From Meira nashicola (Eukaryota; Basidiomycota; Exobasidiomycetes; Exobasidiales; Brachybasidiaceae): 64,000 bases of DNA. Below the pieces are notes generated by a model. The model worked only from the letters and a program-made list of their open reading frames with translations, did no database searches and was not told where the DNA came from. The number at the start of each line of letters is the position of its first letter. Position 1 is the first letter of the stretch. The translations under genes were made by a program, and so were the position numbers. The stretch is taken from contig BCJU01000004.1 in NCBI GenBank assembly GCA_001600355.1, positions 1,550,001 to 1,614,000 on the forward strand, read 5' to 3'. Shown here in pieces: positions 1,766-47,858 of the stretch.

Positions 1766-4062
1766 ATAGAATGTGTTGTCATCATTTTCCTATTTACAGA
1801 GATAAGATGTTAAGTATCTGTCTCTTTCTGTCCAACTGTACACATATACCCTCACGATCAAAAATGCACACGAATCGATTGTCACGTCTTTTGTACATAT
1901 TCTCACGCATCTCTTTTCATACATCCATCTAATTTATGATTGCACGCTGTACATAAAGAGAGGCAAAGAGATTGATGTGGAAATTTGCTATCTTCTTTCT
2001 TTTCAATCTGAAAACGAATCATGTATGTGCTGTCTGTTAAAGCAAGATTGTTAATGCTTCTTTAGCTTTGAGTGATAGTATCGGCAATCTTTCAATGTCT
2101 TTTTATCTAATCAACATTTTATTTTTCCCGAATTCCCGTTAATGCATAGAATGAAGGTGGGGGGAAGGCAGAAGACCGAAAAGCATATCGCGTCAGGCAA
2201 TCAGTGTGCAGCATAGTACCAAAATCGATTGCGGGTCACGCCAAGCCTTGGCTGCATATGAATATCTGTGTGCGTTAGTGCGCTGTGTGTGTGTTTATGC
2301 TATTCAACTGTCGAAAGAAAGGGTCAGAGTTATCTTTCTACTTCTGCATTTCATCGTTTTTGAGATCCAGTTCTTTTCCCCTTTCCTGTGCGGCGGTCGG
2401 CGGCGTTTAAAAAAGAAGCAAACTTTGATCATACATACATACATACATATGTATTCATATTTCGATACAGATAAGAACGAATGCCCACACACAAACCTTT
2501 ACGTGAGAGGCGTGCATATACATATATTGACTTAAGATAGATTTTTACTCAGCGGTTTCTCTATTGTTGCGGTCCAAGAAAAAAAGATAATGATTTTCTT
2601 ATTATATTTATCTTTCACGCAGCCGCATTATACGGCGGGAAGGCGGAGTTTGTGTATATGAAATTAGGCGACCATCTTTAATTGGTGGTGATGATCCAAG
2701 ACGTACATATTCTATCCAACAAATACATAAGTACAGACACGATTTTCCTAATTATCTTGTCAACTTTTCTCAAATTTGATTGTACAATGTATTGCTTTAT
2801 ATCCGCTTTGTGTGACTCTTTTCTAGAACGTGTCCTTCAGCCGGACCAATTCTCCGAGAGGTTTCTATATTCAGTATGTAATCAGCTTCTATTTCTGCAA
2901 AAAGAATCAGAATGACATGATCTGGGCTAAAGTGGCTGTGTGGGCGACGTCGGGCTACGTGTATTGTAGGACAAGTCAAGTATACGCCGTATGTGTCCAC
3001 GCCTAGAAGTTTGATGCATTTCTGCCTAGAAACGCTAAAGGGACGCTAATGCAAGTTGGACATCTCTTGTGTACGTTTTCAATCTATATCATTCGTTATT
3101 TTTTCACAAAGATTGCTTGGCAAATGAGAACCGTGTCATTTTAGAAATACATGTCACGTCAGCCTTTGCATACAGTTAACAATCTTAACTGATAAGCATT
3201 TATCCATTTCTATACCGCATTTGTACCTTCTAGCCTGTCAATATGCAATCTCGACCTTGCATGATGCGCTGCGATGCGTGTAAAAAGAGTGTTCTATTCT
3301 TAGCGACAACACTTTGATCTTTTTCCTATCTACTCCTCCTCTTTCAGGAATAAAATGCCAAGACAATTAGGGACGATGATGAGGAACATCCGGGCTTTAA
3401 ATTAAAATAAAAGTTTCCCATTTGTGATTGATAATCAAAAGATAGGAGATGGACACCGCCTCTTTTATACTTCCGCTTTCTTTTATTGGGCGGGCGGGGA
3501 TAAATGCGCGGCGCTCCACCTCAATTTTGACATTCCCATTCGGACATTGCATCATATTTGCGTCCCTTTTTTACTCTTAACATGCCAAGCACTGTAAAAA
3601 CCTTATTACACATCAAACAAGAGCGTGCCAAGGAGGAAGATCATCATATACATACTTTTGTTTTCAATTTAATCTGCAGGCGGCTTGAACCGCTTCTTTG
3701 TCCGTCTATTTTTATTATTTCTTTGGGAATGATTATGCGCCGAATATTTTTTCAATTACCGTAGGCATCTTGGAAGGAAGGAGTTCGAAAAAATGTAAGA
3801 GTTGCTTATGTTTACATATATACTTCTTTGGCTGACTTGCTTAAACGCAGTAAGTCACTGTAATAAAAAGTATGGAAATATGATATGATTTCACATAATG
3901 ATGATAGTTTGTCTTTCTTTTTGCATTCCTACCATCAACCCCACGTCGATACAAATATAGATTGCCGATAATAGACTGCTACCTGATAGAATTTCCTCCT
4001 TCCATTCTTCCTCGATACAACCACCACCAACAACGACAACTTTTGATTGAGTATCAATAATA
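1766..4062. other. Long gene-free stretch, 2.3 kb
   Basis: No frame here looks coding: the short open frames have low-complexity, Phe/Ile/Tyr-rich translations typical of AT-rich noncoding DNA. It holds an ATAC microsatellite near 2431 and GC-rich patches such as GGCGGTCGGCGGCG near 2392 and GGGCGGGCGGGG near 3489. The part nearest 4063 is presumably the promoter of the LrgB-like gene. No RNA gene was recognised. Confidence 0.6.
2431..2449. repeat. ATAC tetranucleotide microsatellite
   Basis: About five consecutive ATAC units in noncoding DNA. Confidence 0.9.
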
Positions 4063-6693
4063 ATGACTTCAACGACTTCCAATAATGCCAATAACAAATT
4101 ACAAGCACAAAGAACGAATTCCAAAAGAATGTCTAGAGAATTAAGCACATCACCTTCATCTCCTACACTTAACACTGTTGACGATGAAGAAGAGGCAACT
4201 TCAAATAACAGGATACGAGGCAGGCAAGATGTTAAAGCAGCAATTAAGCTAACATGGCAAAGACAAAAGAAACATTTGTTCACCACTTGGATACATGTAC
4301 CTCTTGGTGTAACGTTAATTTTAGTAATTTGTTGGGCTTTACGTTTAGCAATTCAACAAGCTCCATTCAGATTTCCTGCTCCTGTGATTGCGATGATTGC
4401 GATATTTGCATTACTACTTTTACTTGAATTGCTTTCAATAAAATTTCCAGGATCAAAAAATGAATCAAAAGAACTTGAATCAGGTCAACAATCAAACGCC
4501 TCAAAACCAAAAAAACGAAAAAGATTCGTTGATCCTGTCATGCTTTTACTTGCACCACCGTGTGAATTTTGTTTACGTAATATGTCAGTCATGTTTACTC
4601 CAAGTTTCATTTTGATTCCTGCAAGAGAAGTTATTCCAGGAAAAGAGATTGGTTTATTGGCTGCTTGGTTTATCGTTTCGCAAATTTTAGCTTTTGTCAT
4701 TCCAGTTTTCATGAATAGAGGTATTCAATATTCTTATGATCTTATCAAAAAAGATAAAAAGACCTCTCCATCATCAAATATACCTGATAACGTTGACAAT
4801 AATCAATTAAGACGTGGTTCTTCCGCAACTCCATTTCGTGATTCAAGAAGAGGAAGTACTGCAACTTTATCAGGAGTTGATTATGAAAAAGGAATGAGTT
4901 TCTCTGGCGGTCAAAAGTTAGGTGCAATTGCGACTGGTTTATCGGGTGTAACTGCACATATGATCGCTCCAGTTACGCATGTTGATATGTTCCTTGATGA
5001 TGATGATGTTCGTCGTCATTTAGAATCTACAGCGATGGAACAAGCTCGTCAACAAGGTGTTCAAGAAGTTATTTGTACTCCAAATAGCGAACATGCTCCA
5101 GGTCATCATAGACATCGACAATTACAATACGATTCATATGCACCCAAATCTGATGTTTCAAATTTCCAACATCATATTCATTCTCCTCGTTCACGTTCGC
5201 GTAGTCAAAAAAGAAGCAATAGTCGTAACGGCATTCGTTCTCGTTCCGTTTCGCCTTCGAATGGTAGACTTGAAAAGAATGAAGAAGATGAAAAGAATAC
5301 TTTATCTCTTGATGCGGCAATGAGAAAGATGCGTGGAAGACCGTCCACAAGTCCTGGCAATAATAAATCAATCGATAATGATATTCAAGTCATTCCAAAT
5401 TTAGGACAAAACTCTTTCGAAAGTGAGGAAAAAAAGTCTGGAGATCTTATTTTGCCTTCACGACCACAAGCTGCCGCTCATTTATCTTCGTACAAATTCC
5501 CAGCTACAGCTAATGATACCAGAGCAGTCATGGACGACAGTCAAGAATCATCATTACCAAACAAAGAAAAAGCCAGCCTTGATCCTCGTACCGTGACTTC
5601 TAGCCCTATCGATCAAAATGACGAAAACGCGGGAACACAAACTCTTGTTTCTTCAAGACGAGAGTCAAGCAACGATGAACAAGGAACAAATCGTAAGATT
5701 GGATTCAAATTGTTACCACATCCGTTACGACGTGGAAGCAATGTAAATCAAAAAGCAATCCCTCCAATGCAAGAAGAAGAAGAAGAAGATGAGGAAGAAG
5801 AGGATGCAATCGAACGTTTAGCATCTTGGTTTGGCGATTTGATTACTCCAACGATTTATTTTATCGTCTTTATTGTTGGTATTCCATTATTCTTTCTCAA
5901 AGATTTTGCTTTACCACTTTTCTTGGGTATCAATCTTTTAACCTTTATTGCTTCAATCACAATCGTACCACCAACAGTAAGAAGGTTCTTACATCCTATC
6001 CTCAGTACAAGTTTAGCAACCGTTTTGATCATTTGGGCATTCGCAGCAATGAAAGGAATCGGATTGATGAGTTGTCTGAACAGATTTTATAGCACTGATG
6101 CAAAATATTCCGTTTTATGGGATCCAAAAGGATATTCTGGACCGGTACCTGGAGCAGGAGATATTTTGTTCAGTACATTAGATGCAGGTATAGTTGCTTT
6201 AGCCGTACCAATGTATCGTTATCGTAAAGAACTTTGGCAAAATTTGACGAGAATGTTAATCGTCTTATTCCCATGCGCTGCTCTTTCATTATTCTTTTGG
6301 AATTATATCGCTCGATTGATGGGAATGGATCCAATTCGTTCTTTAGCTTTCTCTGCTAGATTTATGTCAACTCCTTTAGCAATCGAACTTGCAGGAAATG
6401 TTGGAGCGGATGAATCGATTACCGTTATTCTTGTCGTTATTACAGGTGTCGTTGCAGCAATTTTGAAAGAACAATTCTTTTATAAATTGATGCGAGTTAG
6501 TAAAGATGATTATTTAACTGTTGGTTTAACGATGGGTGCAACTTCAGGTGCAATCGGTGCAAGTTCACTTATCAGTACTCCACGTACGATGGCAATCGCT
6601 TCTTTATCGTTTGTTGTCTTTGGTGCAATCTTGCTCGTTTGCACTGCCATTCCTCCTATTGTTGAGATTGTTCAACAATTAGCAGGTGCATAA
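4063..6693 (+). CDS. LrgA/LrgB-type membrane carrier (CidA-CidB / PLGG1-like fusion)
   Basis: 876 residues in three parts. An N-terminal membrane part (about 80-225) has four hydrophobic segments and the stretch FTPSFILIPA, which resembles the LrgA/CidA half. The middle (about 226-585) is disordered, rich in Ser/Arg/His/Glu with an acidic run just before 585. The C-terminal part (587-876) is an LrgB domain with repeated hydrophobic segments and the signature ARFMSTPLAIELAG at about 765, followed by a Gly/Ala/Ser-rich re-entrant-like stretch. Plant PLGG1, a plastid glycolate/glycerate carrier, has the same LrgA-LrgB order, so carboxylate export is a plausible role, but location and substrate here are inference. 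The long cytosolic-type linker is unusual. ATG at 4063 is the first in frame after upstream stops. Confidence 0.85.
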   Translation: MTSTTSNNANNKLQAQRTNSKRMSRELSTSPSSPTLNTVDDEEEATSNNRIRGRQDVKAAIKLTWQRQKKHLFTTWIHVPLGVTLILVICWALRLAIQQAPFRFPAPVIAMIAIFALLLLLELLSIKFPGSKNESKELESGQQSNASKPKKRKRFVDPVMLLLAPPCEFCLRNMSVMFTPSFILIPAREVIPGKEIGLLAAWFIVSQILAFVIPVFMNRGIQYSYDLIKKDKKTSPSSNIPDNVDNNQLRRGSSATPFRDSRRGSTATLSGVDYEKGMSFSGGQKLGAIATGLSGVTAHMIAPVTHVDMFLDDDDVRRHLESTAMEQARQQGVQEVICTPNSEHAPGHHRHRQLQYDSYAPKSDVSNFQHHIHSPRSRSRSQKRSNSRNGIRSRSVSPSNGRLEKNEEDEKNTLSLDAAMRKMRGRPSTSPGNNKSIDNDIQVIPNLGQNSFESEEKKSGDLILPSRPQAAAHLSSYKFPATANDTRAVMDDSQESSLPNKEKASLDPRTVTSSPIDQNDENAGTQTLVSSRRESSNDEQGTNRKIGFKLLPHPLRRGSNVNQKAIPPMQEEEEEDEEEEDAIERLASWFGDLITPTIYFIVFIVGIPLFFLKDFALPLFLGINLLTFIASITIVPPTVRRFLHPILSTSLATVLIIWAFAAMKGIGLMSCLNRFYSTDAKYSVLWDPKGYSGPVPGAGDILFSTLDAGIVALAVPMYRYRKELWQNLTRMLIVLFPCAALSLFFWNYIARLMGMDPIRSLAFSARFMSTPLAIELAGNVGADESITVILVVITGVVAAILKEQFFYKLMRVSKDDYLTVGLTMGATSGAIGASSLISTPRTMAIASLSFVVFGAILLVCTAIPPIVEIVQQLAGA

Positions 6694-8377: not shown

Positions 8378-8863
8378 ATGTTCTTATTCAAACCTTTAAC
8401 CATTTTCACATTAAACATAATCCTTTCACCTCTTTTAGTGTATGGAGAAATTACAGTTGATTCCAACGAATTAATTCCTAAAAAGTTAAAAAAAGGTCAA
8501 GGTGTTATTATGGTAGTTGGAGAATCAAGAAATGTTGCAATTTCAGCTGTTCATCGAACACCAGAAACAACTGCAGATTGTCATGGAAATATTAATGAAA
8601 TTACAAAAACATATGAAGGACCTTGCTTTTTATCAACTCAAGATCAACAACAAACTTTTCATGCTAAATGCTTAGATAGTCCAGGATCTGCTACTATCGT
8701 TTTTCATAAAGATGGTGAGAAAGGTAATACCGTTGAGACTCAAGCTGTTGATGGTATTTGGACTGGTTTCGATGATAGAATGCCTTTAAAGCAAAGTAAT
8801 ATGAGTACAAAGAAACAAGGAGTCAAAGTCATCTTAAATTGTTATAATAATAAAAGTACCTAG
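8378..8863 (+). CDS. Array member 1: small secreted four-cysteine protein
   Basis: 161 residues from ATG 8378; the frame extends upstream only to a TTG, so this ATG is chosen. The signal peptide is about 1-23 (hydrophobic, ending VYG). The mature chain begins EITVDSNELIPKKL. Cysteines are at 68, 83, 98 and 155, giving the C-x14-C-x14-C spacing of the array. GIWTGF lies at 126-131 and VILNC precedes the end. Closest to member 2: both have IPKKL, YEGPC and FHAKC. These two lack the HDQ triplet seen before C3 in most others (QQQ here). Secreted and probably with two disulfides. Function unknown. Confidence 0.85.
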   Translation: MFLFKPLTIFTLNIILSPLLVYGEITVDSNELIPKKLKKGQGVIMVVGESRNVAISAVHRTPETTADCHGNINEITKTYEGPCFLSTQDQQQTFHAKCLDSPGSATIVFHKDGEKGNTVETQAVDGIWTGFDDRMPLKQSNMSTKKQGVKVILNCYNNKST

Positions 8864-9223
8864 AGTATTCTTGTATAGCAAACATGACTTAATGGAATAT
8901 AAATGATTAATAATCTTATGATTTGTATAAATGTTAAAGGGTTTATTTGTAGTTCTCCTTTCTATCTGGCGTACATACATGAACTCCTCTTCAAAAACGC
9001 CTTCATGAACCTGATTAATGAAGTTATACGATTTCAATCCCATAAAACTCCTTACACCTCAATCTTCTCCTAAGCTCCTACCACAGTGGGCATTAAGTGT
9101 TCATGTCAGAACAATTTGCATAATAAGCATATTTCTGATATAATAAAAAGCATAAATAGGAACGGTTTTTATCGATTTTATAAAAGTGAACCCCCATCAT
9201 CTAATCTCTTTCTCTTTTTCAGA
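8864..9223. other. Intergenic region between array members 1 and 2
   Basis: No coding signal. It carries the member 2 TATA box, listed separately, and a second TATA-like CATAAATA near 9151. Confidence 0.6.
9179..9186 (+). promoter_or_regulatory. TATA box of array member 2
   Basis: TATAAAAG, 45 nt before the ATG. A pyrimidine-rich tract ending in CAG lies between it and the start. Confidence 0.6.
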
Positions 9224-9754
9224 ATGTTCTCATCAAAGATCAATTTTGCCACCTTGGCCATCTTTATTTTATGCACTGTTACACTTTTCGTTCAAGCAGA
9301 TATCACTGTTGATGCAAAACAAAAGATTCCTAAAAAGCTTGGATCTGATGAAGGTGCAATTTTGATTGTCGGTAATGTAGCAGATATTGCAATTTCAGCT
9401 GATAATATTGGTTCAAAGAATGGAACTGAAAATTCATCAAAACAAGCAAATCCATCAAGTGCAGTTTGTCATGGATTGATTGATAAAGATTCTCAAACGT
9501 ATGAAGGACCTTGTTTACTCTCTATTAAAGAATCAGAACAAGGTTTTCATGCTAAATGTTTAAAAGGAAAAGGTTCTGCTTCTATTACATTTTATAAAGA
9601 TCTTCGAGATGGTAAATCAGTTGAAGTTCAAGCAGTTGATGGTATTTGGGCTGGTTTTAGTAATAAAAAGCCATTAAAACAAGGTACTTTACACACAAAC
9701 AAGAGAGGAGTTAAAGTCATTTTGAATTGCGATAATGATAAAAGCAAGAATTAA
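9224..9754 (+). CDS. Array member 2: small secreted four-cysteine protein
   Basis: 176 residues from ATG 9224. The frame is open further upstream, but the TATA box at 9179 and the signal peptide (MFSSKINFATLAIFILC, ending VQA near 26) support this start. Mature Cys are at 82, 97, 112 and 169 (C-x14-C-x14-C). GIWAGFSNKKPLKQG follows C3, then VILNC. Closest paralogue is member 1 (shared ITVD, IPKKL, YEGPC, FHAKC); from GSASITF onward it also resembles member 3, so it links the first two subgroups. It has an insertion before C1 rich in Asn and Ser. Function unknown. Confidence 0.87.
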   Translation: MFSSKINFATLAIFILCTVTLFVQADITVDAKQKIPKKLGSDEGAILIVGNVADIAISADNIGSKNGTENSSKQANPSSAVCHGLIDKDSQTYEGPCLLSIKESEQGFHAKCLKGKGSASITFYKDLRDGKSVEVQAVDGIWAGFSNKKPLKQGTLHTNKRGVKVILNCDNDKSKN

Positions 9755-10197
9755 TGCCAAGTCTTAATTCGTATTTATAACGTTTTTTCCCTTATGCAAT
9801 CAAATTTGATTGACACTCATTTTATACGCTTTGATAAAAAGAGTGTGCTCAATTAAGTACCCGGTAGAAGTATGACATATTCTTTCCGTGTCTATTAAAT
9901 TTATTTTCAGGGGTATTGCAGTGATGCTGACAAAACATTTTTACGTAAAAATAAATAATTATTCGCTTTTCCTGTCTCTTTTCGGAAACGACGGACCGTC
10001 TTCTTCATTAAAACAGCCGGTAATGTTCCTAACGCCGAGAAGGAACACGGTAATCCGAAGGTGAAGGAATGCTGAGATAGTTGTTGATGTGAGTTGTGCT
10101 ATATAAGATGCTTCAATTCTACCCAAACTCTTTTGTTCTTTCATTTCTTATTCCCCCCAAATTTATCAACTCTAAACAAATTGTCATTCTTTTTAGT
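9755..10197. other. Intergenic region between array members 2 and 3
   Basis: No coding signal apart from short shadows. It contains the member 3 TATA box. Confidence 0.6.
10100..10107 (+). promoter_or_regulatory. TATA box of array member 3
   Basis: TATATAAG, 98 nt before the ATG at 10198. Confidence 0.6.
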
Positions 10198-10743
10198 ATG
10201 CTTTTCAACAATTATCAAAAATGGGTTCTTGTTATCCTCATTTCAATTTTACTAATTTTACCTTTAGCACAAACAGAGCTCGTTGGAGATTCACATTTGA
10301 AAATCACATGGCCACGCAAACGTGGTTCACACGCAATTTACGCCGTAGGAGATCGATCTAAAATTTTAATTTCAGCATCAAATTATAAATCAACAAATGG
10401 AACAGAAAGTCAAAAAGTTGGAATTTCATCAACAGGTCGTTGTAGTGATGTTATTGATGTAAAAAGTGGTACTTTTAAACTACCATGTAAACTTACAACA
10501 CGTAAACATGATCAAATTTATCATGCTGAATGTGTTGATGGTAAAGGTTCTGCTTCGATTACATTCTTTAAATTGGATGGAGAAGTTAAAGATAAAAGCG
10601 TTCAAATTATTACTTCAGATTCAATTTGGGCTGGTTTTACGAATAAAAAACATCATTCATTAAAACAAGGTACCCTTAACGGAAAAGGTGATCGTGTTGC
10701 CGTTGTTTTGAATTGTAAAAATGATAAACGCGGTCGTTATTGA
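10198..10743 (+). CDS. Array member 3: small secreted four-cysteine protein
   Basis: 181 residues from ATG 10198, chosen because it lies 98 nt after the TATA box and begins a good signal peptide (WVLVILISILLILPLAQT, cleavage near 26). Cys are at 82, 97, 112 and 173 (C-x14-C-x14-C). The mature start has the TWPRKRGSHAI block shared in variant form with members 4 and 5. KHDQIYHAEC carries C3, SIWAGFTNKK follows, and GDRVAVVLNC carries C4. The C-terminus is basic (KNDKRGRY). Subgroup: members 3-5. Function unknown. Confidence 0.88.
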   Translation: MLFNNYQKWVLVILISILLILPLAQTELVGDSHLKITWPRKRGSHAIYAVGDRSKILISASNYKSTNGTESQKVGISSTGRCSDVIDVKSGTFKLPCKLTTRKHDQIYHAECVDGKGSASITFFKLDGEVKDKSVQIITSDSIWAGFTNKKHHSLKQGTLNGKGDRVAVVLNCKNDKRGRY

Positions 10744-11110
10744 GCCCGCGCTCTTCAAACATTCTATACCTTTCATCTCGCTTCTTTCTCTGTCAATACT
10801 GTCGTTTACGTCTATTAATGCCATCCTTTCAAACCTTGAGATTTGCCATGGGCTTTATTCACAAAGAGTAGTCTAGTCAACGCCGGACTTCCTTTTTTTA
10901 CTTCGGTTTCCCCCAAATAAAGTTGTAGCGGAAGAACAAAAAATAGATAAACCGCGGTTGTAGTCAGGCTGGAATGTTTGAGAGCCTTTGTTTTTTGGCG
11001 TAATCCTAAACTTGAATTGTATAAATAAAAGCTATTCTGTTAGTAAACAAATCCTGTTTCTTACCATCAGTCATTCTATTAATCTCTACAAACAAACAAA
11101 ACCTTTAAAC
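10744..11110. other. Intergenic region between array members 3 and 4
   Basis: Holds the 10-bp palindrome AACCGCGGTT at 10950-10959, about 150 nt before the member 4 ATG, and the TATA box. CCG/CGG half-sites of this kind are bound by Zn2Cys6 regulators, but binding here is only inferred. Confidence 0.5.
11019..11026 (+). promoter_or_regulatory. TATA box of array member 4
   Basis: TATAAATA, 92 nt before the ATG at 11111. Confidence 0.65.
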
Positions 11111-11641
11111 ATGTTCTTCTTCAACACCGTAAAAGTATTCTTTGTTACACTTTGTGTTGTATCAACTATCGTTCAAGGTAGTATCACTGAAGATCCAACG
11201 CTCGTAGTCAAATGGCCAAGAGGAGTAGGACAACATGCAATTGAAGTTGTTGGAGATGCATCAAAGATTGATCTTTATGCAACGAACTACAAAACTGTTC
11301 AAAGCCCTGAAGGTGCTGTAATTGGTGTCTCTTCAACTGGAAAATGTAAAAAATTAACAAATGCAGAACAAGAAACATTTGAAGCACCTTGTACATTTGA
11401 AACGAATGAACATGATCAATCATTTGAAGCTGAATGCGTTAATGGTGATGGTTCAGCTTCAATTTATTTTCCAAAACAAGGCTCTGTTGGAACAAAAGCA
11501 GTTGTTTCAACAGATGGTGATATTTGGGTTGGATTTTCAAACAAAAAGAATGAACTTTTAAAACAAGGTGAAATTACAAATGATGGTGATCGTGAATCGG
11601 TTATTTTAAGTTGTGATGGTGATTCACGTGGAAATTTGTGA
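11111..11641 (+). CDS. Array member 4: small secreted four-cysteine protein
   Basis: 176 residues from ATG 11111. The signal peptide ends near VQG (about 23). Mature Cys are at 79, 94, 109 and 168 (C-x14-C-x14-C). Shared blocks with member 5 are ITEDP/T, VVKWPR, GQHAI, VGD, SKI, TNYKTVQ, KCKKL and GSASIYFPK, which make these two the closest pair by eye. EHDQSFEAEC carries C3 and DIWVGFSNKK follows. The chain is more acidic than member 5. Function unknown. Confidence 0.88.
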   Translation: MFFFNTVKVFFVTLCVVSTIVQGSITEDPTLVVKWPRGVGQHAIEVVGDASKIDLYATNYKTVQSPEGAVIGVSSTGKCKKLTNAEQETFEAPCTFETNEHDQSFEAECVNGDGSASIYFPKQGSVGTKAVVSTDGDIWVGFSNKKNELLKQGEITNDGDRESVILSCDGDSRGNL

Positions 11642-12029
11642 GCAATGAACAATCATCATAATCCATTACGATAGCATTTCGATCTTGTCAAACAAACTTC
11701 GCTATAGATATATTCTAATTTAATTATCATTGTTGAAGAATTGTTTCTTGTTTGAAAGCGTGTGCTTACTTAATCGTTTGATAAAGGCAATCCTGATTAT
11801 TTTTTTACTTCCGCCGCTTATGATCGATTGTGTACGGTATACCATCAACATATTTGCTAACTTTGTGTTTATACATAATTTTATTTTAGTGGCTACTTCA
11901 TTTCATTTCTAGGCAAACCGCTTTCGGGTTCATGACATAAATGACAAGGGCAGCCGGTGTCCGTTCTACTTTTATTTTCATCCCTTCTCATTTAAACGCA
12001 TCCGAAATGAAGTTTTGCAAATAAAGTCT

Positions 12030-12178
12030 AGCTTTTATAAATGCGGCGCGGCATACCTAACTTTCAACAATAATAAATTGCGGAGTTATATACACTTTAC
12101 CGTCCAGCTCCAGCTTTTATGAAGACGGCATGCCTACTTTTAACAATAAAGGATTGCGGAGAGATATACTTTACCGTC
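12030..12178 (+). repeat. Imperfect tandem repeat in the promoter of array member 5
   Basis: Unit 1 spans 12030-12104 and unit 2 spans 12112-12178. Both run AGCTTTTAT, CGGCAT-CCTA, CAACAATA or AACAATA, ATTGCGGAG, then ATATAC-CTTTACCGTC or the equivalent. Differences are small gaps and substitutions. The module lies 133-281 nt before the member 5 ATG, suggesting a duplicated regulatory block. Confidence 0.8.
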
Positions 12179-12212
12179 TGTCTTTTTGAAGTTAAGAAGG
12201 AGAGGAGAAGGT

Positions 12213-12220
12213 TATAAAAG
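12213..12220 (+). promoter_or_regulatory. TATA box of array member 5
   Basis: TATAAAAG, 98 nt before the ATG at 12311. Confidence 0.65.
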
Positions 12221-12310
12221 AAGCCTTTTTTCCAATTCAAAACTTTTTATTCTTTATCCCAACAATCCACTTCAAAACACTCAATCGTACCATTCACTCA
12301 CTTTTCAATC

Positions 12311-12841
12311 ATGTTCTTCTCAAACTCAAAGCTCATTGCAATCGTAACCATTGCTCTTTCTGCAAACATTTTCGTTATAGGTAAAATTACCGAAGATACT
12401 AATCTTGTAGTCAAATGGCCACGTTTAGCAGGTCAACATGCAATTCAAATCGTTGGTGATCCATCAAAAATTCAAATTTCAGCAACAAACTACAAGACAG
12501 TTCAAAATGCACAAAGTGCAAAAGTTGGAATTCAATCTTCTGCTAAATGCAAGAAATTGATTAATGCAAGTAGTGGTTTATTTGAAGGTCCTTGTACTTT
12601 GACTACAGCTCAACATGATCAAACATACTTAGCTGAATGCACAAATGGTAAAGGATCCGCTTCAATTTATTTCCCAAAATTAGGTAGTTCTCAAGATGTT
12701 AATGTCTTAACTGCAGGTCCAATTTGGGCTGGATTTTCAAACAAGAAAAATCAACCTTTGAAACAGGGTAATCTTAAAAATAATGGAGATCGTGTTGCCG
12801 TTATCTTGAATTGTGATGGTGATCAACGTGGTCACTTCTGA
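12311..12841 (+). CDS. Array member 5: small secreted four-cysteine protein
   Basis: 176 residues. Signal peptide is about 1-24 (IAIVTIALSANIFVIG). Cys are at 80, 95, 110 and 168 (C-x14-C-x14-C). The mature chain has VVKWPRLAGQHAIQIVGD, TNYKTVQ, FEGPC, QHDQTYLAEC, PIWAGFSNKK and GDRVAVILNC, so it is close to the consensus of the array and useful as a query. Closest to member 4. Alternating hydrophobic residues in short segments suggest an all-beta fold, which is inference. Function unknown. Confidence 0.88.
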   Translation: MFFSNSKLIAIVTIALSANIFVIGKITEDTNLVVKWPRLAGQHAIQIVGDPSKIQISATNYKTVQNAQSAKVGIQSSAKCKKLINASSGLFEGPCTLTTAQHDQTYLAECTNGKGSASIYFPKLGSSQDVNVLTAGPIWAGFSNKKNQPLKQGNLKNNGDRVAVILNCDGDQRGHF

Positions 12842-13219
12842 TGCGGTTCTATCTGTTTCATAGTCTATATACACTTTCACAATAGTATATTTGTTTCCTT
12901 GCTTCAGCTGATTGATGACATTCATTTCATTACAAAATAGTGCGGGTCGTTAAAGAGGCGGCATGTTTCCTCTATAGTCTAAAGAATCGATCTGTGTGTT
13001 TGCCACCTGAGATTGAAACAAGGGCGGCGGCCACCTAGAAATGAACCTCGCAATTCCGATGAGAATGCGGCTTGTTACTTGTTGTTGTCCACGTTGCATC
13101 AACGTCAAACAAGCTCAGACATGAAGGGTTTTTAAAAGTATAAATTACGCAAACTTCATGACCCTTTTTTACTCCTTTAACGACAACTCATGACCCCACT
13201 TCCAACTCTTTTCGAAAAG
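12842..13219. other. Intergenic region between array members 5 and 6
   Basis: Contains GC-rich patches (GGGCGGCGGCCACC near 13022), the member 6 TATA box, and a short upstream frame (ATG 13158) whose TGA overlaps the ATG at 13190. Confidence 0.55.
13139..13146 (+). promoter_or_regulatory. TATA box of array member 6
   Basis: TATAAATT, 81 nt before the preferred ATG at 13220. Confidence 0.55.
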
Positions 13220-13756
13220 ATGACGTTGAAATCCTTTTTGTTTTGCTTTATTGCAATTGCATTAATCTTGAATGCAAACTTTGTTCAAAGTCAAATTACT
13301 TATATTGAAAATTGGCAAGTACCTTATCCTGGCTCATTAGACAGTCGTGCAATTTATTTCGTTGGTGATCAAAATCAATATGAAATCTTTCCAACAAATT
13401 ATGGAGGTGGTCAACAATCTACAGCTCAATGTGAACGTTTGTTGAATGATCAACCTGGTCATTTTACCGGAGCATGTGATACGAGTGTTGCAGTTCATGA
13501 TCAATCATTCAACGTTCAATGTACTGCAAATCGTAAAAATGCAGCTTCAATCGTTTTCTTTAAAGATGATGGTTCAACTGATCATCAAGCAAGTATCGTT
13601 ACGGCAGGTAATATTTTTGGTGGTTTTACGTATGAAAGTAAAAATACTCCTTTACGTCAAAGTTCAACAAGTGCAATTACTGGTAAAGGTGATCGTATTA
13701 GTGTCGTGCTTAATTGTGGTAGCAATCAACGTCCTGCTCAATACGGTACTCGTTAA
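13220..13756 (+). CDS. Array member 6: small secreted four-cysteine protein
   Basis: 178 residues from ATG 13220. An in-frame ATG at 13190 would add ten residues; the inner start is preferred because the signal peptide (MTLKSFLFCFIAIALILNA, ending FVQS near 24) then begins normally and the TATA distance matches its neighbours. Cys in the mature chain are at 71, 86, 101 and 166 (C-x14-C-x14-C). The IWxGF motif is IFGGF here. VHDQSFNVQC carries C3 and GDRISVVLNC carries C4. Sequence is intermediate between members 3-5 (VGD, TNY) and members 10-11 (W-x-P near the start). Function unknown. Confidence 0.86.
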   Translation: MTLKSFLFCFIAIALILNANFVQSQITYIENWQVPYPGSLDSRAIYFVGDQNQYEIFPTNYGGGQQSTAQCERLLNDQPGHFTGACDTSVAVHDQSFNVQCTANRKNAASIVFFKDDGSTDHQASIVTAGNIFGGFTYESKNTPLRQSSTSAITGKGDRISVVLNCGSNQRPAQYGTR

Positions 13757-13954
13757 AAATAATAATCAAGCTCATGTACCTCACTCTCGATAAATCAATA
13801 GATCATTCTCCCCTTTCCCCCAAAAACTTTGTTTGCACTCCGATTATTCGGCTCCATTCATGTTTCGAATTCAGTTTAAATAAGGTTGAGTGCGATGTTG
13901 AGAAATATGTTCAATCATGCTACCATCCTTATACTTCTCACAAACTGCGAAACA

Positions 13955-14470
13955 ATGTCGCAAACATACTATTTATTTTATCTCTCATTCTTGTTATTAA
14001 CAAATATTATCTTTTGCCAAGTTCAACTTAAACAAAACTGGAAGCCAGAACAACCAGCAAAAGGATCAAAGCGTTTATTGCTCTTAGTTGGAAACGATTT
14101 AAGTATTTATAATATTTCCATTCCAAAACATCCTCCTAATTATTCACCATTTTCAAAAATCATTTGTGGTTATAAAACTACTTCTAAAGGAACCACAAAT
14201 CTTTTAAGCCCTTGTCAAATTTCAACAGCAAAAGGTATTCAATCAATTATGGTTCAATGTGGTAGTAGTCGAAATCAATCGAATTTTGCAATTTTAGAAT
14301 TCCTTGGATCTGAATTACCTGACTACCAAACGAATGGTTTCATTTGGGTTGGTTTTAGTTCGGATTCAGCTGAAAAACCTTTACAACGTACGATTGGAAA
14401 TTATTTTCGTCAAGGAAATGATAAACATGATGATATGATCGTAAATTGTTATAATAATAGAAGAATGTAA
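13955..14470 (+). CDS. Array member 7: divergent small secreted four-cysteine protein
   Basis: 171 residues from ATG 13955; in-frame ATGs at 13895 and 13907 are possible but would push the signal peptide inward. Signal peptide is about 1-21 (YLFYLSFLLLTNIIFC). Mature Cys are at 71, 87, 102 and 165, so C1-C2 has one extra residue while C2-C3 stays at 15. FIWVGFSS and MIVNC keep the family motifs. HDQ before C3 is replaced (GIQ), and there is no GD-x-V block before C4. It is the most divergent member; relaxed constraint or a new role are both possible. Only a weak TATA-like TTTAAATAAG at 13875 is seen. Confidence 0.82.
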   Translation: MSQTYYLFYLSFLLLTNIIFCQVQLKQNWKPEQPAKGSKRLLLLVGNDLSIYNISIPKHPPNYSPFSKIICGYKTTSKGTTNLLSPCQISTAKGIQSIMVQCGSSRNQSNFAILEFLGSELPDYQTNGFIWVGFSSDSAEKPLQRTIGNYFRQGNDKHDDMIVNCYNNRRM

Positions 14471-14805
14471 GAATTCATTCAATTTCCCCCGGATCAAGTT
14501 ATGTATTCCAAGAAAAATGTCGGCATTCCTGTGACTATGAAATTATGTTTCTTGGCACTTTCGGTACCGTAAATGTGACATACGGGACTCCGTGTATTTT
14601 CAAACACGGAATATCTTAAGTGAAATGTGAAAGGCGTAACTCCGTTTATTTTCTTAATTACGGTATATCTTGTGCGACGGGGGATTTGTTTGTTTGTGGT
14701 ACCTCATTGTGTCCGCATTAAACGGGTACTTAATTCACTACTTTTCATTCATTCTTTTCTTCTTTTTACACCACAACCTCATCATCTTGATAGTTCATCT
14801 TAATA
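14471..14805. other. Intergenic region between array members 7 and 8
   Basis: Holds three inverted CCGT/ACGG elements, listed separately. No clear TATA box was found before member 8. Confidence 0.6.
14567..14671 (+). promoter_or_regulatory. Three inverted CCGT...ACGG elements upstream of array member 8
   Basis: Element 1 is CCGT at 14567 and ACGG at 14582 (11-nt spacer); element 2 is CCGT at 14590 and ACGG at 14606 (12 nt); element 3 is CCGT at 14642 and ACGG at 14660 (14 nt). Elements 2 and 3 lie in a longer direct repeat, 14587-14617 and 14639-14671, of form ACTCCGT-TATTTTC-ACGG-ATATCTT. CCG-N-CGG pairs with spacers near 11 are typical Zn2Cys6 activator sites; this use is inferred. Confidence 0.55.
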
Positions 14806-15375
14806 ATGAAACTTATTCTTAGTTCAACTATTGCTCTTATTTTGGCATGCTCTACTGCTCTTGCAGATTTTACACCACTTAATACAAGAGGAGGTATTCA
14901 TCTCGTAGCTGGCTTTGTACCACCTCCATCTGGAGGAGCAGAAAAGATTCATAAGATTGATTTTCCAGGTTATTATACGGATTATAATATTACTTCAGAT
15001 GCATATGCAAAACATTTACAATCTTCAGCAACATGTGGAAAAGTGACAATCAAAGGTCAAGATTATGCAAAACATCCATGTGCAACTTCTGTTCTTGATC
15101 ATGATCAAATTTTAACAATTACATGTACAGCTGATGGAAAAGATGACGTTTATGTTGATATTCAATTTTTTCAATCAGGTGAAGTTACTTTAACTGGTTA
15201 TGGTAATATTTGGGGAGGATTTACAAACGAAGATCAATCAAAAGAACTTCAGATTATTCCAGGTCCAGATAATCAACTTACAGCAAAAGGTGATGATGTT
15301 GGAGTAATTGTGAATTGCAATAATAATAATAGAAAATCAAGCGATGATCCCCTAACTTCTGATCCTCAAAAATGA
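14806..15375 (+). CDS. Array member 8: small secreted four-cysteine protein
   Basis: 189 residues. Signal peptide is about 1-20 (LILSSTIALILACSTALA). Mature Cys are at 77, 92, 107 and 171 (C-x14-C-x14-C). Blocks shared with member 9 are RGGIHLV, VPPPSGG, ITSD-YAK, SSATCGKV and GPD, which define a subgroup. DHDQILTITC carries C3, NIWGGFTNED follows, and GDDVGVIVNC carries C4. A short polar Ser/Asp tail (SSDDPLTSDPQK) extends beyond C4, longer than in members 1-7. Function unknown. Confidence 0.88.
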   Translation: MKLILSSTIALILACSTALADFTPLNTRGGIHLVAGFVPPPSGGAEKIHKIDFPGYYTDYNITSDAYAKHLQSSATCGKVTIKGQDYAKHPCATSVLDHDQILTITCTADGKDDVYVDIQFFQSGEVTLTGYGNIWGGFTNEDQSKELQIIPGPDNQLTAKGDDVGVIVNCNNNNRKSSDDPLTSDPQK

Positions 15376-15585
15376 TCAATTATGTTTATAAAGCATTCTC
15401 CTAATTCTTGGCTATAGGACCCTTTGAGAAAAGGAGGAACATCATGTCTTATATGTGTCAGGAGAATGATAAATATTATGATTTGATCAACAATTGCTCT
15501 GACAAGCAAAGAAGAAAGGGTCTTATAATAACTCCTATACGCCATTCAAAGTTAATCATGTTCAATTTATTGTTTCAAAGTATGG

Positions 15586-15594
15586 TATATAAAG
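15586..15594 (+). promoter_or_regulatory. TATA box of array member 9
   Basis: TATATAAAG, 57 nt before the ATG at 15643. Confidence 0.65.
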
Positions 15595-15642
15595 CCACAT
15601 TTTATTACTGTCTTTACATCTTTCTTCATTTCCTCATTCACA

Positions 15643-16263
15643 ATGCGTCATCTTTCTGGATCCATTATAGCATTCGTCTTGTTTTGTTCAACAGTACTTG
15701 CTGAATACACTCCAATTTCAAGAAGAGGAGGTATTCATCTAGTAAGTGAACTCGTTCCACCTCCCTCTGGAGGACAAGAAAAGTTTCACACGATCGAATT
15801 TCCAGGTCCGATTTCAAATTATGCAATTACTTCAGATGTATATGCAAAACGATTACATTCTTCAGCAACATGTGGAAAAGTGATGAGTGATGAAAAATAT
15901 TTATGTGTAACATCAACAAGACAACATGATCAAATATTTTCAATAAGTTGTTTACAACCTTCAAATGAACAAAGTTATGCAGATATTGAATTTTTACGTT
16001 CGGGTGACGTTATGGTTAGTGGAAATGGAACGATTTATGCTGGTTTCACAAACGATCAATCAAATGTTCTTAAAATGCTTCAAGGACCAGATAAACCAAT
16101 TGATGCGAATGGTGATGATGTTGGAGTGATTATTAATTGCGTAGATAATCAAAGACAATCTCCCGATGTTGCACCTAGTCAAAATCAATTTACCGATGTT
16201 GCACCTGATCAAAAACAATCTTCCGATGTTGAAAATTCATTTGATTCTGATTTTCAAGAATGA
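15643..16263 (+). CDS. Array member 9: small secreted protein with repeated C-terminal tail
   Basis: 206 residues, the longest member. Signal peptide is about 1-20. Mature Cys are at 77, 88, 103 and 166: C1-C2 is four residues shorter than in member 8, whereas C2-C3 remains 15. TIYAGF replaces IWxGF and GDDVGVIINC carries C4. After C4 an acidic tail holds imperfect 11-residue repeats (SPDVAPSQNQF, TDVAPDQKQSS, then a partial SDV copy), encoded by a 33-nt minisatellite at about 16159-16232. Closest relative is member 8. The tail is likely disordered and may vary in copy number between strains. Confidence 0.87.
   Translation: MRHLSGSIIAFVLFCSTVLAEYTPISRRGGIHLVSELVPPPSGGQEKFHTIEFPGPISNYAITSDVYAKRLHSSATCGKVMSDEKYLCVTSTRQHDQIFSISCLQPSNEQSYADIEFLRSGDVMVSGNGTIYAGFTNDQSNVLKMLQGPDKPIDANGDDVGVIINCVDNQRQSPDVAPSQNQFTDVAPDQKQSSDVENSFDSDFQE
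16159..16232 (+). repeat. 33-nt minisatellite inside array member 9
   Basis: Two full imperfect copies and a partial third (CCGATGTTGCACCT, CCGATGTTGCACCT, CCGATGTTG as anchors), in frame, encoding the D-V-A-P repeats of the C-terminal tail. Confidence 0.8.
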
Positions 16264-16451
16264 TTAGAATACGATTGCATCTTTATCTATATTTAAAATC
16301 ATTTATTTCTTTTATTATTAATGTTAAAATTGAATTTAGTTGAATTCAAAACTTATTAAGTGTGAAGGCGTATTTTCGGATTCAAAAATTCCGATTCCGC
16401 CAGCGTGAATACATTCATTTCATGTTTATGTTCTTCTCTTTTCTTCCAACC

Positions 16452-17027
16452 ATGTTCTTTTTGAAATTGTACATTGTGGCAATCACCTTGCTCATCTTTC
16501 TATTCACGCTTATCATTCAAGTAGAAAGTATAACAAAAGATGGTATTAAACTTATCAAAGGATGGCAACCAGAACCAGTAGGTGGTAAAAACAAAACACA
16601 TTATATCACAACATTAGGCAACGCAGAAAATTATCAAATTAAAGCAGATCAATATGAAAAAGGAAAATTATCAAACGCAATTTGCAATTCTACTATTTCA
16701 AGTGATGGAAAAACAATTGCTTCAAATTTATGTTCTACTTGCGCAAAAGATCATGATCAAATCTTTACAGTCATTTGCACTTCAAATTCAGCAATTAATC
16801 CATTTGCGATCATTCAATTTGGACAAAATGATGAAATAAAAGTATGGACAATTGGTGATATTTGGATAAGTTTTCAAACATTGCTAGAAGTTACAATTCT
16901 TTTACAAAGTGCTTTACCGAATAAACCACTTCATTCAAGAGGTGATGATGTAAGCGTCATCGTTAGTTGTATAGGAAAACATCCTGATAATGCTTTGCAA
17001 AGTTATTTATCGCCCCTATCTTTGTGA
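16452..17027 (+). CDS. Array member 10: small secreted protein with an extra cysteine
   Basis: 191 residues from ATG 16452; in-frame ATGs at 16422 and 16428 are alternatives, and the frame reaches further upstream only to a GTG. The chosen start matches member 11 and gives a signal peptide of about 25 residues (ITLLIFLFTLIIQVES). Family Cys are at 78, 94, 109 and 173, with an additional Cys at 97, so an odd number in the mature chain: one may be free or pair between chains. KDHDQIFTVIC carries C3. DIWISF replaces IWxGF. Shares ITKDGIKLIKGWQPEP with the equivalent block of member 11. No clear TATA box. Function unknown. Confidence 0.82.
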   Translation: MFFLKLYIVAITLLIFLFTLIIQVESITKDGIKLIKGWQPEPVGGKNKTHYITTLGNAENYQIKADQYEKGKLSNAICNSTISSDGKTIASNLCSTCAKDHDQIFTVICTSNSAINPFAIIQFGQNDEIKVWTIGDIWISFQTLLEVTILLQSALPNKPLHSRGDDVSVIVSCIGKHPDNALQSYLSPLSL

Positions 17028-17331
17028 TGATTGCAATTCTTAACATCGCTCCTAGCATATAAAAAAGAGGGATGATCAATGACAGAAACATGCAAATATG
17101 AAACTCATTACGTATTCGTTGAAATGATTAAATTAATTCTTTATGAATTGTACGCTTTATCATTTCCTTCCTTATTTTAATGTGACCATTCTTTGTACCT
17201 ATTGTCCCTATTTGACGCAAGATGTCATTCATACTTCAGTCAATGAAAAGGTATAAATAAGCCCAAGTATATGTTTCATCTCCAACCCACTCTTTCTTCA
17301 TCAATTATCTCTCTCTTTCTCTTTCTCTAAA
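17028..17331. other. Intergenic region between array members 10 and 11
   Basis: No coding signal; holds the member 11 TATA box. Confidence 0.6.
17252..17259 (+). promoter_or_regulatory. TATA box of array member 11
   Basis: TATAAATA, 80 nt before the ATG at 17332; the sequence between is pyrimidine-rich. Confidence 0.65.
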
Positions 17332-17880
17332 ATGATCTTCTCAAACGTCAAACTTATCAGCTTTGCTGCAATTGCAATCACACTTGCAATCATTCCTTCA
17401 ACAATCGCAAAAAATGCAACAATCAGAGATGGTATCGATTTAATTGAAGGTTGGCAACCAGCACAAGGACAAGGTGTTCATGGAATCACTTTAGTTGGTG
17501 ATGGTAGAAAGTATCATATTAAAGCAGAAAAATATGCAAAAAATAAAAAGAGTGATGGAATATGTAATGCAACAGTTGTAAAAGGTAAAAAAGTCGCAAA
17601 AAGTCCTTGTTCAACAAATGCAAAAGAACATGATCAATTCTTTACCGTTGGTTGTACACCAAAAGAAAAAGATAATTTTGCAAGATTTTTAATTAAAGTT
17701 TCAGGTGAAATTGAAATTAATACTCATGGTAATATTTGGGCAGGTTTCACTACAGATGAGAAAAATCAAAAATTACGTCAAACAGAAAAATCAATGAAAG
17801 CATTAACTGCTTCAGGCGATAATGTTGGTGTGATTATTAGTTGCATTAGCGATGCTAGACCAACAGAAGAAGATCAATAA
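17332..17880 (+). CDS. Array member 11: small secreted four-cysteine protein
   Basis: 182 residues. Signal peptide is about 1-26 (ending PSTIA). Cys are at 78, 93, 108 and 171 (C-x14-C-x14-C). DGIDLIEGWQP near 33 matches member 10. KEHDQFFTVGC carries C3, NIWAGFTTDEK follows and GDNVGVIISC carries C4. The mature chain is Lys-rich between 60 and 100. It ends with an acidic tail (PTEEDQ). Last member of the array; the next gene is an unrelated transporter 1.3 kb away. Function unknown. Confidence 0.88.
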   Translation: MIFSNVKLISFAAIAITLAIIPSTIAKNATIRDGIDLIEGWQPAQGQGVHGITLVGDGRKYHIKAEKYAKNKKSDGICNATVVKGKKVAKSPCSTNAKEHDQFFTVGCTPKEKDNFARFLIKVSGEIEINTHGNIWAGFTTDEKNQKLRQTEKSMKALTASGDNVGVIISCISDARPTEEDQ

Positions 17881-19165
17881 TCAAGCCACCTCTTTGAAAC
17901 AATTCATATATTTTGTCTCTTTAATTTCTTAATCACATTCTTTTATCCTATTTCTTCCGAATGAGTGATTTGTGTAATATTTTGAGTAAGTACATCAGCC
18001 CTTACGGCACTCCCGAACAATGATTGCTTTTGGTGAGTGGCTTAACTTTATTATATACATGCAACCCTGCTCGGAAGAACGTTTAATGGGGGAATATAAT
18101 AAATGTCGTTTGTATGATTGACACTTCAGGTACATACACAGGTACATACATACGGTACACTTAAGCGAGTTTGGGGTGCATATACCTTCAGCCAATCAAA
18201 AAAGATTATAGACCTCTCTCTCCATCTTTTCCCCCGCATGCATGTTTGTATGGCATTGAGACTGTAAGCGAAACAATCTTTGACGCTAATGATCTAAAAC
18301 GAAATTAAAGAATGTATGTGAAGCCGCGGTTGAGCCGCATGAAAAAAAAAAACAACATTTGCAAGACAGGCAAAATAAGGAACAAAATTAAAAGACGCGT
18401 GCGTGTACATCAGAAAGGGGGAATAGGATGCCGATTCTTTCTTAGTTTTAATGCACTGCAGCAACGCGGAAGTTCCTTGTATTACCGCCGCTCCATTGAG
18501 TTTTATGCCGACGGCATGAGCGCTGTTGGAAAAAATATGAAATCCCCGCTCTTGATTAAAAAACAAGCATGCACACTGGTATTTCTATCAGTTCAGGCTA
18601 CTCTTCTAGACTTTGTATTTTGAATACCGCTTTTCCCTTGCACTTCCCGTCAAAGAGCGGAAATGAAATATGTTCCCCATAAAGTGCCTTTTATCAAATT
18701 GCTTGGTTTTTAAAAGGTATTTGAGGAGAAGAAGAAGTTAAGATTGAACTAGTGTATGTTATTTTAACTTATTTTTGCCTTTTTTTTTTATCTTATTAAT
18801 GACTTTGTTCCCCTGCGTATGTCTGTCTGTCTGTATTGCAAACCCCTGATTTACTTCATCTGCACAAATCACAGTTGTGCATGACGCCCTTTAATTCAAT
18901 GCGTGTTCAGCAATAAAGCAGGTACGCACTTAAGACACACTTTTCTCTTTCTGCTCTTTCCTTTTTTGTTGGGTCAATTATAAACATATAAAAGACCTAC
19001 TTCATTTCTCCATCCTTTCTTCTTTCATGTATCCCACCTTTGCGCCTCTTTATTAGGTCGCTCTCATCCCTTATACCCCTCACCGCAAAAAATTAACACA
19101 GCATATATCGTGCAATCGCTAGCAAAAAACACCTCCCTCTCCTTCACCACCATCATACTCACACA
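17881..19165. other. Intergenic region between the array and the JEN transporter gene
   Basis: 1.3 kb without a coding signal. A TATA-like TATAAAAG at 18987-18994 lies 179 nt before the transporter ATG and may be its core promoter. A pair of antiparallel short frames near 18300-18600 looks like noncoding shadow. Confidence 0.55.
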
Positions 19166-33703: not shown

Positions 33704-34402
33704 TCAATCTTCTTTCCATAATTCTAATCGAATGCGTGATTCGCCTTTAAGTTTTTTGATTGAATAACGTGTAATTTGAACTGATTGATAAGCTTTTTTA
33801 GCAAAAGAATCTGCTTTTGCATGAAAAGGTAATTTTGCGGCTTTAATTGCATCTTGATAAGATTGCCAAATAAAAGTTGTGAAATTAAAACCTGTAATTG
33901 GATCAAGTTGACCTAACCAAAACATTAATAAACCACCTGAACGAATTGCTTCTTCATGATATAATTTATTCACTTCGAATAAACTTAAAGAACCACAATC
34001 ACGTTTACGCTTAGATTGAATTGCAACGGCAAACCAAGTATGTTCATCTTGTAATGGTAAATGGGATAATTGATTCCAATTAAATGACTTTTTGATCAGA
34101 GAAAGTGAAGAACCACTACAAGGAAAACCTTGCTTGTATTTTGTTGAAATGCATTGAAACGAATGCAAAGCTTGCCAAAGATGAAAAGAAGCACGATCGA
34201 TAGAAGGTAAACGAGAACGTGTATAAAGAACACTTTTACTTAATTCCGAATCTGAATGAATTCCTTCTACTCCTGAACTTGCAAATAAGTATTCGAGATT
34301 ATCATCAATAATATCTATATCGACTTCAAATTCATCATTCCCCTTGGCTGGAAGTCGAGATAAGATTGGTTGCATTTTGCGCAGAGGGGTTTTGTTGAAC
34401 AT
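33704..34402 (-). CDS. UPF0643-like protein, shorter tandem copy
   Basis: 232 residues. The C-terminal two thirds matches the upstream neighbour block by block: SRLPSID, FHLWQALH, LPLQDEHTWFAVAIQSKRK, HEEAIRSGGLLMFWLG, TTFIWQSYQDAIKAA and RLELWKED. The pattern (WxxVAFRSKRK, EEAxxSGGLLxYWxG, TxxIWxxxxDAxxA) is what I recall of the fungal UPF0643 family, whose function is unknown. Relative to its neighbour it lacks about 120 N-terminal residues and the linker before the domain is short. Starts at the first ATG. Probably cytosolic or mitochondrial; no targeting signal is convincing. Confidence 0.75.
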   Translation of the reverse strand: MFNKTPLRKMQPILSRLPAKGNDEFEVDIDIIDDNLEYLFASSGVEGIHSDSELSKSVLYTRSRLPSIDRASFHLWQALHSFQCISTKYKQGFPCSGSSLSLIKKSFNWNQLSHLPLQDEHTWFAVAIQSKRKRDCGSLSLFEVNKLYHEEAIRSGGLLMFWLGQLDPITGFNFTTFIWQSYQDAIKAAKLPFHAKADSFAKKAYQSVQITRYSIKKLKGESRIRLELWKED

Positions 34403-34565
34403 TCATAATAATTTTCAAAGGAGTTGTTATATATCTCACACGAGAGTATTGCCATGGATGGATTCAATATCAAGCGCGGGCTAATTTCAGTCATAATATG
34501 CCGGTTGGCCTTGTGTGATGTGATGTGATACGATTGAATGCTATGAATATGTTACAAATGCTGTA

Positions 34566-34590
34566 TGTGTGTGTGTGTATGTGCGTGTGT
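34566..34590. repeat. GT-rich microsatellite
   Basis: Imperfect (GT)n run with ATGTGC interruptions, between the two UPF0643-like genes. Confidence 0.85.
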
Positions 34591-34663
34591 ATGATTGGTT
34601 GACAGGTTTCTCGGCGGGATTCTATGGAGCATGCTCTAGAATCTATTGTCCCTATTGATTTTA

Positions 34664-47486: not shown

Positions 47487-47858
47487 TTTAGAAGTCGAGC
47501 ACTGATGATGGTCAAGAGAGATCAGCGCACTTTATACGTTGTGGAAAGCATTATCAAGTTTCCCACATTCATCCATAAGAATTTTGGCTTCTTCTCGTAA
47601 GAGGGGCAAAAGCGGAGTTTCATAGAATGCAAATATGGAAAAGAAATGAAGCAAGATTTAGTGTCGGGGTGAGAATTTGGGTAATACAGGAGTTTCATCA
47701 ACCCGTAACTTTTGCTCCTATTAATCTTAATGAATACCACACGCAGTACCGACGTCAAACTTAGAAAATTATAATCTCATTAATGAATCTGGAAAATTAT
47801 CATTTAAACTAGAACCTTCACAGTCAGTATTTGGATAATCGAAATTATGTTGAAATTC
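47487..47858. other. Gap between the two prolyl oligopeptidase genes
   Basis: 372 nt; promoter of copy 1 and 3' flank of copy 2. No gene seen. Confidence 0.6.

Follow-up and report, generated by a model that had tools for sequence, protein, structure and literature searches.

Array and Member Genes

The window examined here is a stretch of 64,000 nucleotides of Meira nashicola DNA. Between positions 8378 and 17880, within 9.5 kb, it contains eleven related genes on the plus strand, and all eleven reading frames are uninterrupted in the window sequence. The array is located on a 1.96 Mb contig, ca 0.4 Mb from the contig end, in a genome of 17.9 Mb and 20 contigs. The genes are the following:

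Member 1: 8378..8863, plus strand; 161 aa, likely signal peptide 1-23
Member 2: 9224..9754, plus strand; 176 aa, likely signal peptide 1-25; sister of member 1
Member 3: 10198..10743, plus strand; 181 aa from internal Met (ORF opening 10108)
Member 4: 11111..11641, plus strand; 176 aa; TATA-like box at -91
Member 5: 12311..12841, plus strand; 176 aa; TATA-like box at -98
Member 6: 13220..13756, plus strand; 178 aa from internal Met (ORF opening 13190); TATA-like box at -81
Member 7: 13955..14470, plus strand; 171 aa from internal Met (ORF opening 13895)
Member 8: 14806..15375, plus strand; 189 aa
Member 9: 15643..16263, plus strand; 206 aa; grouped with member 8
Member 10: 16452..17027, plus strand; 191 aa from internal Met (ORF opening 16422); five cysteines
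Member 11: 17332..17880, plus strand; 182 aa

Members 3, 6, 7 and 10 likely start at the internal methionines at 10198, 13220, 13955 and 16452, respectively. For the first three we infer this start, and that of member 10 alone is backed by a database protein, P0002, whose beginning it matches.

A genome search with member 5 finds all eleven array members (itself included), ten of them at E values of 8.7e-7 or lower and member 7 at 0.0018. With the paralogue C1b as the query, member 7 is found at 9.5e-23. Sequence comparison thus excludes chance as the origin of the relatedness. An earlier note on this DNA had described eleven related genes on one strand, each with a signal peptide, and both points hold: the reading frames are intact with four cysteines aligned in 11/11, and every member has an N-terminal hydrophobic stretch, with a best 10-residue Kyte-Doolittle mean of 2.28-3.66 that exceeds every stretch past residue 40 in the same protein. 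Signal peptides are therefore likely by composition, with the cleavage sites chosen by eye.

Concerning the promoters, a TATA-like box is found between -180 and -50 in 8/14 family genes (C5b, introduced below, left out), compared to 3/18 of the other ORF starts in the window. In the array itself the count is 6/11, which was reached by 6/2000 shuffles. This excess would fit regulated expression, but proves nothing. Apart from it, no shared promoter word clearly exceeded the shuffled controls.

Family Members outside the Array

Genome searches that used members 5, 8 and 10 as well as C1b, C5a and C5b as queries gave a family of at least 15 genes, namely the 11 in the array, two on C1 and two on C5; these counts are lower bounds. 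A probable decayed copy was also found inside the array:

C1 pair: L030:3157-3744 and 3876-4406, minus strand; tandem, intronless
C5a: L031, exons 4102-3823 and 3759-3488, minus strand; one 63-base intron
C5b: about L031:5410-6030, plus strand; one intron, at a position different from that in C5a
Probable decayed copy: 15378-15515, plus strand; between members 8 and 9; member-7-like C-terminal piece with an in-frame stop

C5a and C5b are in divergent orientation. The term intronless, applied to the eleven array genes in the earlier note, is valid for them, but C5a and C5b carry one intron each. Another study (PMC8476143) picked eight intron-poor fungi, Meira miltonrushii among them. Since this species is intron-poor and two members of the present genome bear introns, the absence of introns carries little weight and needs no special cause.

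The piece at 15378-15515 was obtained by tblastn with one of 26 queries (E 0.005). Its score of 66 was reached by 0/200 shuffles, the shuffled maximum being 61, and it is probably a remnant of a family gene. A second relic candidate, at 17993-18082, was discarded, as its E value is 0.35 and its translation resembles nothing.

Sequence Signature

The four cysteines are invariant in the alignment of the array members (11/11) and in all 15 members of the genome. All 15 also share the pattern C-x10-21-C-x14-15-C-x56-72-C in a secreted mature chain of 138-186 residues, and in 14 of them the spacing between the second and third cysteines is exactly C2-x14-C3. The mature chain contains four cysteines in 14/15 members, while member 10 has a fifth one, placed between the second and the third.

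One glutamine is also kept in 15/15 members, and in the IW-x-GF segment the glycine and the phenylalanine are near-invariant. In total, 16 columns reach a conservation of at least 85% (G, I, S, C, C, Q, C, A, F, W, G, F, L, I, C, R), and none of them is D, E or H. A hydrolase or other enzyme is considered unlikely because these columns hold neither an acid nor a histidine, yet an HD pair does precede the invariant glutamine in 9/15 members. The net charge varies from -13 to +12 across the array members.

Descent and the Second Species

The mean identity between array neighbours is 41.7%, compared to 31.0% for all pairs, a difference reached by 0/20000 random orders. As recorded in the sequences, this establishes tandem duplication as the origin of the array copies, with adjacent genes being the closest kin. 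In a tree of 27 rows (15 own members and 12 others), members 1-6 form one clade, members 8-11 another, and member 7 goes together with the C1 pair. Member 7 thus belongs to the array by position and with the C1 pair by descent. C5a and C5b are long branches whose placement is unsure, as long branches tend to meet.

In M. miltonrushii, the four proteins P0016, P0013, P0014 and P0009 cluster with members 3, 8/9 and 11, and P0005 matches the C1 pair. The identities are 68% for member 3 and P0016, 67% for member 8 and P0013, and 60% for member 11 and P0009; over the presumed orthologue pairs, taken as closest partners, they amount to about 60-81%. All four proteins are listed with the same longest contig of 4,542,697 bases, which suggests, without proving it, that they come from one array in that species as well. 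P0005 holds both C1-type domains and an internal signal-like stretch, and may be a gene-model fusion. Since M. miltonrushii has orthologues both of members 3, 8/9 and 11 and of the two C1 genes, the expansion is older than the present species. The earlier note had proposed a lineage-specific expansion, and the family is restricted to Meira at the sensitivity of our searches.

For seven paralogue pairs, crude pairwise dN/dS values of 0.35-0.71 were obtained. Divergence among the paralogues appears to be fast but constrained. None of the seven estimates exceeds 1, and they show no sign of positive selection.

This pattern of tandem, fast-diverging secreted paralogues is what one would expect if the proteins were plant-apoplast effectors of a smut-like fungus, which dampen defence or hide wall fragments during endophytic growth. 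In the mig2 cluster of Ustilago maydis, small secreted proteins with cysteines are encoded by genes in tandem, and the array resembles smut clusters of this type in the same features. Endophytic life has been reported for Meira species (PMC8840373), and parasitism by Meira, a relative of the plant-parasitic Exobasidium, cannot be ruled out according to PMC13010171. On the other hand, none of the dN/dS estimates points to such a role, and Pfam and protein searches (see below) did not connect the proteins to any named effector family. We regard the effector scenario as possible, if doubtful.

Searches for a Known Family

By hmmscan, neither the 15 own members nor five M. miltonrushii proteins gave a Pfam match above the cut-off. 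The runs extended to E values of 5 or 10, although HMMER filtering removes the majority of matches with E values beyond about 0.1. The rows below the cut-off are at chance level, with best E values of 0.032 for the array and C1 members, 0.0016 for P0009 and 0.082 for C5b. The description of the family as unrecognised, which a convincing hit to any named Pfam entry would have contradicted, has thus withstood this search.

In protein searches, with matches carrying nr/UniRef labels, the only matches were to Meira miltonrushii, to proteins of the window itself and to unnamed Logan/ENA proteins; it is important to point out that these searches require shared five-residue words, such that remote relatives may escape, and that one search missed P0009. 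No Ustilago protein was among the matches so labelled, where remote kin would be missed. A relationship to the smut Mig1/Mig2 proteins thus finds no support in these searches. Against solved structures, the best E value by sequence is 0.36. Among open-licence PMC papers, no publication on the four-cysteine family could be found by title or abstract start, and PMC10942635 and PMC9816061 gave nothing useful under the candidate fold names. The searches support that the array represents a real, undescribed secreted four-cysteine family.

One secreted protein known from M. miltonrushii is FTSP, which has relatives in whiteflies (PMC10583550). It has also been reported in Ascomycota and oomycetes (PMC10583550), where the array family was not found, and because of this spread a kinship between the two is thought unlikely.

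Predicted Fold and Disulfides

AlphaFold gives confident beta-sandwich models for member 5 (pLDDT 93.9, pTM 0.89) and member 11 (pLDDT 92.7, pTM 0.87), which are 30% identical to each other. Neither of these single-state predictions contains a helix of four or more residues. In the model of member 5, strands 54-61 and 66-74 form a hairpin in which C56 faces C71 (56+71 = 61+66), which leaves C86 for C144. We infer from this the disulfides C1-C2 and C3-C4; the predicted pairing is derived from strand limits and not from coordinates, and in model 11 the register is off by two residues.

The top structural neighbours of both models are mostly secreted sandwiches with binding or inhibitor roles (thaumatin-like, aegerolysin, Cry34, fungal lectin, actinoporin), and yeast SUN4 and thaumatin-like domains are among the structural matches listed for both. 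The modelling and fold search of member 5, suggested at the outset, have thus delivered a confident sandwich but leave its affinity uncertain. The kind of family, tandem genes for secreted proteins, is a familiar one. A viral origin was also considered and rejected, the best match in a viral structure library (E 0.058) being noise.

Among the closest known systems are the thaumatin-like proteins (PF00314), in particular TLXI, a small xylanase inhibitor. They have ten or more cysteines (10-16), compared to four, and five in one member, for the array family. In hmmscan a PF00314 row is absent in 15/15 own members; the same genome has three PF00314 genes over the cut-off. An hhalign comparison with five thaumatin-like proteins scored 12.6, within the range of 60 permuted controls (mean 11.0, maximum 15.3) and below the reversed profile (14.1), where the thaumatin-like profile consisted of these five sequences only, three from the same genome and two from plasmid records. 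Prokaryote genome scans gave no bacterial thaumatin relatives for a deeper profile. With hmmsearch, the E values between the two families are at least 0.32 both ways (small sets), and a further profile comparison was likewise noise. With neither a Pfam nor a profile signal, membership in the thaumatin-like family was rejected.

We have also compared the family with cytolysin and lectin sandwiches, namely aegerolysins, actinoporins, fungal fruit-body lectins and thermostable direct hemolysin. Foldseek never gave an E value below 0.1 for these, the TM scores are about 0.3, and a Pfam match is absent; the array family differs in its two likely disulfides and in lacking, in the two models, any helix of four or more residues. 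Actinoporins have an N-terminal amphipathic helix, and an actinoporin-type pore former was rejected on the basis of the models of members 5 and 11. PF06355 (aegerolysin) and PF07367 (fungal fruit-body lectin) are both absent in 15/15 own members. The genome search for PF06355 was empty, as were the control genomes, and that for PF07367 gave no match, with one control of 14 matched below the cut-off. For PF01823 (MACPF) there was no match in the genome, the control matching 1/14, and a split or divergent gene could escape such a search. With this MACPF result, an aegerolysin and MACPF system also appears unlikely.

These neighbours bear on the option that the proteins are lectins or lipid binders directed against mites or competitors, which would bind glycans or sphingolipids on mites or other leaf microbes and damage or repel them. 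With both models, insecticidal Cry34, aegerolysins, fungal lectins and actinoporins occur among the structural neighbours, mite killing is known from two species of Meira (PMC8840373), and a galectin-like beta-sandwich lectin of Pleurotus has been implicated in anti-mite defence (PMC10174108). However, the structural scores are weak, the known pore routes find no support in the models or in the MACPF search, and the effect of M. argovae on mites has been attributed to a small molecule, argovin (PMC8840373). We consider such a function rather unlikely.

The thaumatin-like and SUN4 matches would also fit proteins directed at the fungus itself, i.e. wall, adhesion or mating-surface proteins that bind its own beta-glucan or mannan. 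A precedent is Llp1 of Ustilago maydis, a secreted lectin-like beta-sandwich that covers the wall of the smut and is not required for virulence (PMC11857070). As predicted for the array proteins, it is a secreted sandwich with disulfide bonds, and its authors interpret it as a surface lectin that has structural relatives of possible redundancy, but it has a ConA-like fold and six cysteines in three disulfides (PMC11857070). In addition, a distribution restricted to the genus at our search sensitivity would be unusual for core wall proteins, and so would an orthologue identity of 60-81%, as judged without a baseline of ordinary genes. A self-directed role is thus also improbable.

Proposed Function

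The reading we favour, with a probability of about 0.5, is that the array encodes small secreted non-enzymatic ligand-binding proteins of the Meira lineage that act outside the cell. Each member would be exported via its signal peptide and fold into a single antiparallel beta-sandwich, probably held by the two disulfides C1-C2 and C3-C4. The fixed core would carry a surface that varies strongly among the paralogues, as the range of net charge suggests, and the combination of predicted sandwich and varied charge fits a set of binders. The copies would have been born by tandem duplication, with some now elsewhere (C1, C5) and some decaying. By analogy with other secreted fungal sandwiches, they would most likely bind glycans or lipids on surfaces encountered on the leaf, i.e. 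the plant apoplast, mites or competing microbes.

The earlier note had placed the role outside the cell, on a host, on competitors or at the fungal surface. Secretion is indicated by composition, while ligand binding and the outward-facing site of action are deduced. The scenarios of plant effectors, mite or microbe binders and own-wall proteins partly overlap with that of secreted binders. A bolder version, to which we give little credence, is a new structural family, i.e. a minimal two-disulfide sandwich, either reduced from or convergent with the thaumatin and cytolysin-lectin sandwiches, that Meira has expanded into a battery of surface binders against mites and leaf competitors.

The present results provide a membership rule and confident fold models for a family that is listed in M. 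miltonrushii only under the name "uncharacterized protein". Meira fungi inhabit plants both inside and on the surface, and some are mite killers. In its excerpted text, the review cited above credits metabolites only (PMC8840373), and a set of secreted proteins would therefore be a new lead. Since the 11 genes are collected in a compact array of 9.5 kb that can be removed in one deletion, their role is directly testable.

Family members within and outside the array, and further genes outside the window

The gap separating members 8 and 9 of the array holds a further piece of the family, the translation of which is interrupted by an in-frame stop:

15378-15515, plus strand, C-terminal piece resembling member 7, probable decayed copy

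Judged from its sequence, this piece is probably the remnant of a member-7-like family copy. Two further family genes lie on contig C5 of the same genome (L031, C5:549000-556000), in divergent orientation and ca 1.3 kb apart. Each has one intron, at a position that differs between the two, and in the tree the branches leading to both are long. In Meira miltonrushii, both domains of the type encoded by the tandem C1 pair are found within a single annotated protein (P0005, 339 aa), which has an internal signal-peptide-like stretch and would be either a gene-model fusion or a genuine two-domain protein.

For a secreted Meira protein, the MmFTSP-like XP_025357528, PMC10583550 reports kinship with whitefly salivary proteins. 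The M. nashicola genome contains a full-length thaumatin-like gene on C1 and two small ones, each with a single apparent intron:

C4:221 kb (L039), ca 165 aa mature
C5:665 kb (L040), ca 165 aa mature

Other genes in the window

33704-35836, minus strand, two adjacent proteins (232 and 390 aa), alike in appearance
45195-50330, minus strand, two tandem prolyl oligopeptidases (Pfam PF02897, PF00326)
57021-60125, minus strand, Argonaute-like gene split over several ORFs

The Pfam scan gave no match for the 232- and 390-aa proteins. Both prolyl oligopeptidases have hydrophobic stretches near the N-terminus. In the Argonaute-like gene, a Pfam scan of the 3' ORF only located a Piwi domain (PF02171) there, and because of this gene RNA interference may be retained in Meira nashicola.
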